The position numbers and the translations under genes were made by a program. The notes under the pieces are model-generated. The model was not told where the DNA came from and did not search any database. It worked only from the letters and a program-made list of their open reading frames with translations. A stretch of DNA of 58,944 nucleotides from Lachnospiraceae bacterium (GTDB lineage: Bacteria > Bacillota > Clostridia > Lachnospirales > Lachnospiraceae), in the NCBI GenBank assembly GCA_016283775.1, contig JAEENL010000193.1, positions 1 through 58,944 on the forward strand, given 5' to 3'. The number at the start of each line of letters is the position of its first letter. The stretch's first letter is position 1. Positions 1 to 1,646 of this stretch are shown piece after piece.

Positions 1-546
1 TCCTACAACAAGATAGAAACGGTATATTCCGCATTCGGGGCAAAATGTGATATGCTTACATTGGCATCCGACGGAATAGAGAGCGAAAAACTGCAGAAAA
101 CAAAAGCAGGACTTTTGCACATCACTCCGTACAGGAGCTACCCAAGCGGAGTTTCGGCGACTGCCGCAAAAAAAAGAGAGTATGTAAAATGGGCCGCAAA
201 GAGGAACGGGATCCTGGTGGAGGACGATTTTGAATCGGAGTTTTCCCCGTCGAGGAAGAACGAGGAGACACTGATGGCAATAGACGGCGGGGAGCGCGTG
301 ATCTATGTCAACACCTTCTCGATGACTATTTCGCCGTCTGTACGTGTGGCATATATGGTCGTCCCTGAACGGCTTCTTGGGAGATTCAGCGAAAACACCG
401 GGTTTTATTCATGCACGGTGCCGACGCTCGATCAGTACGTGATCGCGGAACTCATAGGAAACGGTGATTTTGAGAGACACATCAACCGAGTGAGAAGACT
501 TGAGCGGCAGGAAAAAAGAAGCTATGCTCAGAAAGGCGGGAATTAA
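1..546 (+). CDS. MocR/GntR-type regulator, aminotransferase-like domain; 5' cut by window, C-terminus short
   Basis: The open frame runs from base 1, so the start and the expected N-terminal winged-helix domain lie outside the window. What is visible matches the fold-type I aminotransferase part of MocR/PdxR regulators: a TPYRSYPSGV stretch, then VEDDFESEF (the Asp that contacts the PLP ring nitrogen in the family), then NTFSMTISPSVRVAYMV. In the family the last segment is usually TFSK, and that Lys forms the PLP Schiff base; here it is Met. The protein stops shortly after an INRVRRLERQ helix, where family members continue for about 80 to 100 residues. So both the PLP lysine and the C-terminal lobe are missing. 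It could be a decaying gene or a PLP-independent regulator. The stop overlaps the next start by one base, which suggests cotranslation with DUF3842. Confidence 0.75.
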   Translation, partial: SYNKIETVYSAFGAKCDMLTLASDGIESEKLQKTKAGLLHITPYRSYPSGVSATAAKKREYVKWAAKRNGILVEDDFESEFSPSRKNEETLMAIDGGERVIYVNTFSMTISPSVRVAYMVVPERLLGRFSENTGFYSCTVPTLDQYVIAELIGNGDFERHINRVRRLERQEKRSYAQKGGN

Positions 547-950
547 TGAAGATACTGGTTATTGACGGACAGGGCGGGAGCCTCGGGGCACAGGTCATAA
601 AGGCGGTATTGGGGCGCTTTCCGGATATTTCGCTGACAGCGGTCGGAACAAATGCCATGGCCACATCGGCAATGCTGAAAGCAGGCGCGGGAAACGCGGC
701 AACCGGCGAGAACCCTGTTATAGTTACGTGCAGGACTGCGGATGTCATAGTGGGGCCTGTGGGGATTGTGGTCGCAGACTCCTTGAATGGTGAGATCACT
801 CCAAAGATGGCACTGGCCGTGGGACAGGCGGATGCTGTGCGGATACTCATTCCCATGAACAAGTGCGACATAGTCGTTGCCGGTGTTAAAAATGTGTCAG
901 TAAACGCGCTCATAGAAGAGGCGGTTGACAAAATCGGAGAGATGCTTTAA
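546..950 (+). CDS. DUF3842 family protein
   Basis: A 134-residue protein that matches the DUF3842 family as I know it from Clostridia: it begins MKILVIDGQGG, a glycine-rich nucleotide-binding-like loop, followed by GTNAMATSAMLKAGA and ADVIVGPVGIV. The family has no established biochemical role. The start overlaps the stop of the regulator upstream by one base, so the two are probably translated together. A sigma-A-like promoter lies inside the last 26 bases of the gene and reads into the ECF transporter gene. DUF3842 next to an ECF S subunit may mean a shared cofactor or vitamin theme, which is inference. Confidence 0.8.
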   Translation: MKILVIDGQGGSLGAQVIKAVLGRFPDISLTAVGTNAMATSAMLKAGAGNAATGENPVIVTCRTADVIVGPVGIVVADSLNGEITPKMALAVGQADAVRILIPMNKCDIVVAGVKNVSVNALIEEAVDKIGEML

Positions 951-953
951 TAT
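925..953 (+). promoter_or_regulatory. Sigma-A-like promoter for ECF transporter leader
   Basis: TTGACA at 925-930, a 17-base spacer and TAATAT at 948-953. It overlaps the end of the DUF3842 gene. Transcription would begin near 960, so the RNA would start almost exactly at the first leader hairpin (959-979). Confidence 0.65.
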
Positions 954-958
954 ACTGC

Positions 959-1060
959 TGTCGTTCACGAAGGATGACATGAGGGCTGAAGCCCGTATTT
1001 TTAAATGATCGTATGATATCACGAAGGTATCGTTTTTCTTGTAAGAAAAGCGGTACCTTT
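959..1060 (+). promoter_or_regulatory. Tandem ACGAA-loop hairpin leader with overlapping terminator (candidate riboswitch)
   Basis: Two 8-bp hairpins have the same loop and the same closing pairs: 959-979 and 1013-1033, each showing TCACGAAGG (965-973 and 1019-1027) with loop ACGAA closed by C-G and then U-G. A GGGC-TGAA-GCCC stem (983-994) lies between them. The 3' arm of the second hairpin (1026-1033) is also the 5' arm of a 17-bp terminator stem (1024-1040 with 1043-1059) followed by TTTTATTT. Forming hairpin 2 would therefore block the terminator. This is the layout of a transcriptional ON switch for the downstream ECF gene. The tandem ACG-loop layout recalls guanidine-II (mini-ykkC) RNAs, but the loops are five bases and closed by C-G, and the gene is not an SMR exporter. 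Guanidine-IV (mepA motif) is the other class to compare. The ligand is unknown. Confidence 0.6.
983..1002 (+). terminator. Weak hairpin with T-run after DUF3842
   Basis: GGGC (983-986), loop TGAA, GCCC (991-994), then GTATTTTT. The stem is only 4 bp, or 5 with a two-base loop, so termination would be weak. It may instead be the linker stem of the tandem-hairpin leader. Confidence 0.3.
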
Positions 1061-1082
1061 TATTTGTGAAAAGGAGAAAAAC

Positions 1083-1646
1083 ATGAATTCAAGGATCTCA
1101 TCAAGAACATTAAGGCTCGTTTGGGCAGCTGTATGCCTTGCGCTCGCACTGGTTTTGCCTTTCCTCACCGGGCAGATCCCGGAGATAGGAAGCAAACTTT
1201 GCCCCATGCATCTTCCTGTGCTGCTCTGCGGTTTTCTGTGCGGCCCTGTCTGGGGCATGATAGTGGGCTTTGTGGCTCCGCTTTTAAGGACACTGCTTTT
1301 CTCAATGCCTCCATTCCCGCAGGTTGCCGTGCCTATGGTATTTGAACTGCTTGCTTACGGTGGCGTTGCAGGACTTTGCTATAACCTTTTACCCAAAAAG
1401 AAATTTTTCCTCTGGGTCGACCTTGTGATCGCAATGATCGCAGGCCGCATCGTGGGTGTGCTTGCGAAACTCGTGTGCGTGGGACTTCTCGGAATGAAAG
1501 GAAATATCGCCGTCGCAGCGCTTTTCACAAGTTATGTGACCGATACCATCCCCGGCATCATTGTACAGATCATCCTCATCCCGCTTATTGTCATAGCTCT
1601 GAAAAGGGCGGGGCTTGTTCCTGTTGAACCCAAAGACAAGAAGTAA
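1083..1646 (+). CDS. ECF transporter S component (substrate-binding membrane subunit)
   Basis: A 187-residue, highly hydrophobic protein with about five to six membrane segments. It carries the KLCPMHLPVLLCGFLCG segment seen in a clostridial group of ECF-type vitamin transporter S subunits. S subunits bind the substrate and share the EcfA/A'/T energy module, which is not encoded in this window. The ATG follows an AAGGAG ribosome site. Its leader carries a tandem-hairpin attenuator (959-1060), so expression is probably switched by a small molecule. The substrate cannot be told from sequence; pantothenate, niacin or another cofactor precursor are possibilities only. Confidence 0.75.
   Translation: MNSRISSRTLRLVWAAVCLALALVLPFLTGQIPEIGSKLCPMHLPVLLCGFLCGPVWGMIVGFVAPLLRTLLFSMPPFPQVAVPMVFELLAYGGVAGLCYNLLPKKKFFLWVDLVIAMIAGRIVGVLAKLVCVGLLGMKGNIAVAALFTSYVTDTIPGIIVQIILIPLIVIALKRAGLVPVEPKDKK

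Follow-up and report, generated by a model that had tools for sequence, protein, structure and literature searches.

We describe a short RNA leader upstream of a vitamin-type ECF transporter gene in a Lachnospiraceae bacterium, which we interpret as the antitermination leader of a nickel and cofactor regulon in Clostridia, with the protein DUF3842 as its most likely bound factor. We hold this interpretation as a whole to be rather likely. It builds on directly observed features, i.e. tandem hairpins in conflict with a terminator, covarying conservation, a coherent regulon and strict co-occurrence with DUF3842. Judged by gene content, the regulon is nickel import together with synthesis of the nickel-pincer-nucleotide (NPN) cofactor, which is made by LarB, LarC and LarE (PMC11796402). 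In the literature searched, we found no description of lar genes or the NPN cofactor being controlled at the RNA level, nothing relevant linked nickel or NPN to a riboswitch or to antitermination, and DUF3842 was not mentioned. If true, our interpretation would define a regulatory RNA that is widespread among gut Clostridia and give DUF3842 a function, possibly as a new family of RNA-binding sensors. It would also point to ECF-kinase salvage of NPN or a precursor in bacteria without LarC.

The window, i.e. the whole 58,944-nucleotide stretch that was analysed, carries the element between the genes for DUF3842 and the ECF protein, with the following parts.

546 to 950, plus strand: DUF3842 gene (PF12953, 134 aa; Pfam 5.2e-48)
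925 to 953, plus strand: sigma-70-type promoter TTGACA-N17-TAATAT, within the 3' end of the DUF3842 gene
959 to 979, plus strand: hairpin P1, 8 bp, ACGAA loop (R2 model match 54.1 bits, E 1.2e-9; covariation)
983 to 994, plus strand: hairpin P2, GGGC-UGAA-GCCC, which aligns to a conserved P2 with an AGAA loop
1013 to 1033, plus strand: hairpin P3, putative antiterminator, 8 bp (6-bp core), ACGAA loop (97% of cells paired in relatives)
1023 to 1060, plus strand: intrinsic terminator, 17 bp, then TATTT (terminator covariation in relatives)
1071 to 1076, plus strand: ribosome-binding site AAGGAG (from sequence)
1083 to 1646, plus strand: ECF transporter S component gene (PF12822; Pfam 3.3e-19), putative regulated gene

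Within the window, TCACGAAGG is present in two copies only (965-973 and 1019-1027). P1 (arms 959-966/972-979, -7.6 kcal/mol) and P3 (arms 1013-1020/1026-1033, -5.0 kcal/mol) both have a C-G closing pair followed by a U.G pair. The terminator (arms 1023-1039/1044-1060, -20.8 kcal/mol) ends 22 nt before the ATG of the ECF gene and shares positions 1026-1033, the 3' arm of P3, so that the two structures are mutually exclusive. A preliminary description had already reported the two 8-bp ACGAA hairpins with their shared sequence and closing pairs, the conflict of the second with a 17-bp terminator and the ECF gene downstream, all of which we could confirm. Its two-hairpin architecture holds insofar as tandem hairpins are present, the last of which competes with the terminator, but P2 had been missed, and the leader usually has three hairpins; in the window, a linker separates P2 from P3. 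Likewise, a transcription start around position 959, at P1, is plausible from the promoter sequence, while the consensus promoter claimed there has an imperfect -10 hexamer (TTGACA 925-930, 17 nt spacer, TAATAT 948-953; 10/12 matches to consensus). The leader region folded more stably than all of 200 shuffled sequences (z -4.2). Covariance models R1 and R2, which we used to search for the leader across Clostridia, each gave one copy, R1 in the window's own assembly and R2 in the window itself.

We infer RNA binding by DUF3842, the ligand and the direction of control as follows. Transcription would begin at P1, and the three hairpins, whose loops are of the A(N)NAA type with a Y-G closing pair, would serve for recognition. 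When unbound, P3 would be displaced by the stronger terminator and the ECF gene would be off. Since the terminator is far stronger than P3, off should be the default state and a stabiliser of P3 would be needed for expression. Binding of the hairpins would hold P3, block the terminator and turn the ECF gene on; that the leader switches the gene on, as proposed previously, fits the energetics. The most likely bound factor would be DUF3842. This small protein, Rossmann-like and encoded beside the leader, would sense nickel or NPN, which is a pyridinium mononucleotide, and would bind to the RNA at scarcity. Importers and synthesis genes being on would signify scarcity, which speaks for a protein that binds at low NPN or nickel rather than for stabilisation of P3 by a metabolite. 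This logic, in combination with the co-occurrence described below, leads us to prefer DUF3842 as trans-acting factor.

Conservation was analysed in 80 relatives of the ECF protein, taken from named Clostridia MAGs. In the kind of search that the preliminary description had proposed, the hairpins recur upstream of other ECF genes and beside DUF3842, and they are conserved with covariation. Screening 280 nt of upstream sequence at 86 ECF genes gave 84 short A..AA-loop hairpins compared with 0 in equal intragenic stretches. The order promoter, hairpins, P3, terminator and ribosome-binding site was present, fully or partially, in about 40 ECF relatives, with promoters resembling TTGACA-N17-TATAAT at the equivalent place. 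Loops varied among relatives at their inner positions (AGAA 40, AYGAA 20, ACAA 6, and others), whereas the flanking Y-G closing pair varied much less. In MAFFT alignments, the P1-P2-P3 structure was 89-91% paired, falling to 34-54% when pairing partners were slid, and contained 46 and 82 double-change cells compared with 15 and 27 in shuffles. Strong covariation was located in P1, P2 and the terminator, the latter being 93% paired with 45 double-change cells versus 16 in shuffles. P3 was 97% paired, yet its covariation did not exceed that of column shuffles as its arms are too constant, which fits a segment that has to serve two structures. The conserved, mutually exclusive antiterminator and terminator that characterize antitermination leaders are thus present. 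In variant leaders (L100, L101, L103), the 3' arm of the terminator pairs with the whole of P3, including its 5' arm. Weak model matches at L115-L123, L266 and L298 were discarded since they lay within coding sequence or were not accompanied by a terminator, and searching the class with a degenerate pattern returned mostly matches in coding sequence, plus a few true leaders.

The genes headed by the leader in other Clostridia define its regulon. It precedes the lar operons larE-larB-larC (L256, L324), larE-larB-larC-cbiM (L322) and larB-larC-larE (L257); LarE, LarB and LarC of L256 all score above the NCBIfam equivalog cut-offs. Further, it heads a larB-cbiM/nikM-type operon (L273, CbiM/PDGLE confirmed by Pfam) and a cbiM operon, downstream of which lies larC (L255). 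Five NikA/NikB-type operons (L262, L315, L318, L319, L320) also carry the leader, their SBP_bac_5 proteins having nikA as best NCBIfam match, below its cut-off. Other headed genes encode a methyltransferase followed by NikB/C-type permeases (L252, L263), a FecCD permease (L114/L135) and two small membrane proteins (L147, L270), with LarC next in L154/L190. Many ECF genes are headed as well, commonly with a gene for a uridine-kinase-type P-loop kinase after them; additional arrangements are kinase-ECF (L043) and DUF3842-ECF (L041, L091). The small membrane pair (MACFFVPAAEAV.../MTLLTTVFAA...; L190:6839-7602, L147:1676-2407, L270, L035), which is linked to LarC, ECF genes and the leader and had no Pfam or NCBIfam match, is possibly a new nickel or NPN transport component.

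DUF3842 was encoded in all 28 leader-bearing genomes checked, in exactly one copy each, against a family background of 31 of 120 genomes. One of these copies (genome G043) is truncated; there, the leader is kept beside a DUF3842 remnant of about 45 residues (L004, around positions 1300-1480). The leader was detected in at least 22 of the 31 DUF3842-positive family genomes, against none in 398 kb around the lar loci of 30 genomes with LarC and without DUF3842 (Fisher 1e-9), a comparison in which leaders were found partly by inspection and in stretches of unequal length. In about 9 of the 31 positive genomes, the regions examined contained no leader. Nor was one found at the ECF loci of DUF3842-negative family genomes. 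A follow-up on another sample gave the same picture: where an ECF locus had a leader but no DUF3842 gene within 4 kb, DUF3842 was found elsewhere in 16/16 genomes, compared with 10/29 genomes for leaderless ECF loci (Fisher 1.4e-5; leader calls partly by inspection). The commonest position of DUF3842 is immediately upstream of the leader, whichever gene comes next. Its AlphaFold model (pLDDT 95) shows a Rossmann-like domain, and GTN, GEN and Cys107 are invariant. A fold search with this model gave generic Rossmann matches only (TM <0.56) and no close structural relative, and the protein has no known RNA-binding domain. Based on these genomic patterns, DUF3842 is probably the trans-acting partner of the leader, and, given the strict co-occurrence, we consider an antiterminator that depends on a protein no less likely than a ligand-binding riboswitch.

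Several observations weigh against DUF3842 as the sensor. Besides its generic fold and the truncated copy in G043, DUF3842 could be a protein of the NPN pathway whose only tie to the leader is a common regulon, the roughly 9 positive genomes that lack a leader in the examined regions do not fit easily, and P3 is too invariant for an independent covariation test against shuffles. We weighed a stand-alone riboswitch in which P1-P2-P3 bind NPN, a precursor or Ni2+ and thereby set the balance between P3 and terminator, DUF3842 being one of the pathway genes. The regulon, with its synthesis genes, metal importers and what is probably a transporter for cofactor salvage, is of the kind typically governed by a cofactor riboswitch, the structure is conserved with covariation, and the leader also precedes DUF3842 itself (L041, L091). 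Because co-transcriptional folding could shift the balance between P3 and terminator, we keep this explanation as a tentative second one. Against it, all DUF3842-negative genomes examined lack the leader, both at their lar operons and at their ECF genes. Further, the short loops, variable inside, leave little room for a binding pocket, and a metabolite stabilising P3 would turn uptake on at abundance, which is the wrong sense. Slightly less likely still is that the leader represents the first riboswitch for an organometallic coenzyme, with tandem A(N)NAA hairpins binding NPN or its nucleoside and controlling synthesis, nickel uptake and salvage.

A different RNA-binding protein that senses nickel or NPN could likewise act on the tandem hairpins. 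Similar hairpins in tandem that overlap a terminator typify the targets of dimeric antiterminators, with ANTAR proteins as precedent (PMC3369931). ANTAR, the main known candidate, was however found above cut-off in only 11 of 28 leader genomes, at a glnA locus in the window's organism, and DUF3842 is more constant than any other linked gene, making this explanation improbable. Finally, an element just 3' of DUF3842 that includes an intrinsic terminator might consist of chance hairpins and the ordinary terminator of that gene, with no regulation involved. The comparative data rule this out for practical purposes: the structures covary, a promoter is conserved immediately 5' of P1, hairpins far exceed those in controls, and the element recurs ahead of genes that are unrelated but belong to one pathway. 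DUF3842-dependent antitermination stays our preferred interpretation.

The leader shares traits with several known systems. Rfam 15, scanned in gathering and permissive (E<=10) modes against the window and leaders elsewhere, gave chance-level matches only, so that the known-riboswitch check suggested in the preliminary description yielded no match to the leader. Its proposed kinship to guanidine-II (mini-ykkC) or guanidine-IV (mepA) did not stand. Short tandem hairpins are common to both, and the window loops contain ACG-A, but the closing pairs differ, the leader usually has three hairpins, and its regulon comprises nickel import and NPN genes, so that guanidine is not its theme; export or degradation of guanidine is not represented. 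For guanidine-II, the characteristic pair of ACGR tetraloops was not found, as CG is missing from most loops (AGAA is commonest; AUGAA and ACAA occur too), and its covariance model gave no match at gathering or E<=10.

PyrR attenuation involves a regulator gene within the operon, with leaders before the PyrR gene or between it and the next gene. A likely regulator gene lies within the operon here as well; however, PyrR promotes termination whereas binding here should prevent it, and the Rossmann-like DUF3842 has no match to PyrR. The PyrR binding site model (RF00515) reached 19.6 bits (E 1.2, threshold 54) and was rejected. Cobalamin riboswitches control genes for cobalamin synthesis and for cobalt and cobalamin transport. 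The present leader follows a parallel logic, with genes for making the cofactor, importing the metal and importing the cofactor under common control; its structure is entirely different. The NiCo (czcD) riboswitch, a four-way junction controlling exporters, also concerns nickel-related genes, whereas the present leader controls importers and synthesis genes. Neither the cobalamin nor the NiCo riboswitch had an Rfam match at any leader; the one cobalamin match, in L087, is located 3' of the ECF gene.

The leaders targeted by the ANTAR proteins EutV, NasR and AmiR also carry small hairpins in tandem whose loops are conserved; their last hairpin excludes an overlapping intrinsic terminator, as we found here, and their bound form is on (PMC3369931). 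In ANTAR substrate RNA, the loops of both hairpins are six nucleotides long, the first being A and the fourth G (PMC3369931). In our leaders, loops of 4-5 nt follow A(N)NAA (AGAA, AYGAA, ACAA, UGAA) instead of this A1/G4 rule, two hairpins lie upstream with P3 about 20-50 nt away, and the genes headed are nickel/NPN rather than nitrogen genes. By this loop rule and by the count of 11 in 28 genomes given above, we rejected an ANTAR substrate. As these two defining ANTAR features failed and Rfam kinship to the other four systems is lacking, we report a new leader family among conditional transcription terminators, probably with a new family of RNA-binding partner.

The ECF S component of the window had no NCBIfam model above cut-off. 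Across the window's family (n=120), LarC was encoded in 4/23 ECF-positive and 71/97 ECF-negative genomes (Fisher 1.2e-6, a test that ignores shared ancestry, each genome representing a different genus), and LarC adjoins the ECF gene in 11 of the 80 relatives. By gene content, the ECF protein and the kinase thus appear to tend to replace LarC or to sit beside it. Both arrangements would be explained by import of the NPN nucleoside or a precursor followed by phosphorylation, which we suspect to be their function. The uridine-kinase-type P-loop kinase beside the ECF gene (L003:2034-3203, L211:813-1421) is hence a candidate NPN-nucleoside kinase; in some loci, it has an N-terminal extension with no Pfam match. 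Lar_N was found in some ECF genomes (G021, G078, G144, G149). A role for NPN as signal through LarA was rejected since Lar_N is absent from the window's organism. Among the 120 family genomes, 75 encode LarC and 36 have Lar_N above cut-off; with LarC common and Lar_N rarer, many of them appear to produce NPN yet have no known enzyme that uses it, which hints at unknown NPN-dependent enzymes.

At the two ends of the window, a group II intron domain was detected at the contig end (58835-58905, minus strand; Rfam RF00029, 46.1 bits), and positions 1-546 encode the C-terminal part of a gene whose stop overlaps the DUF3842 start and whose product, with no Pfam match, resembles a MocR-type aminotransferase domain.
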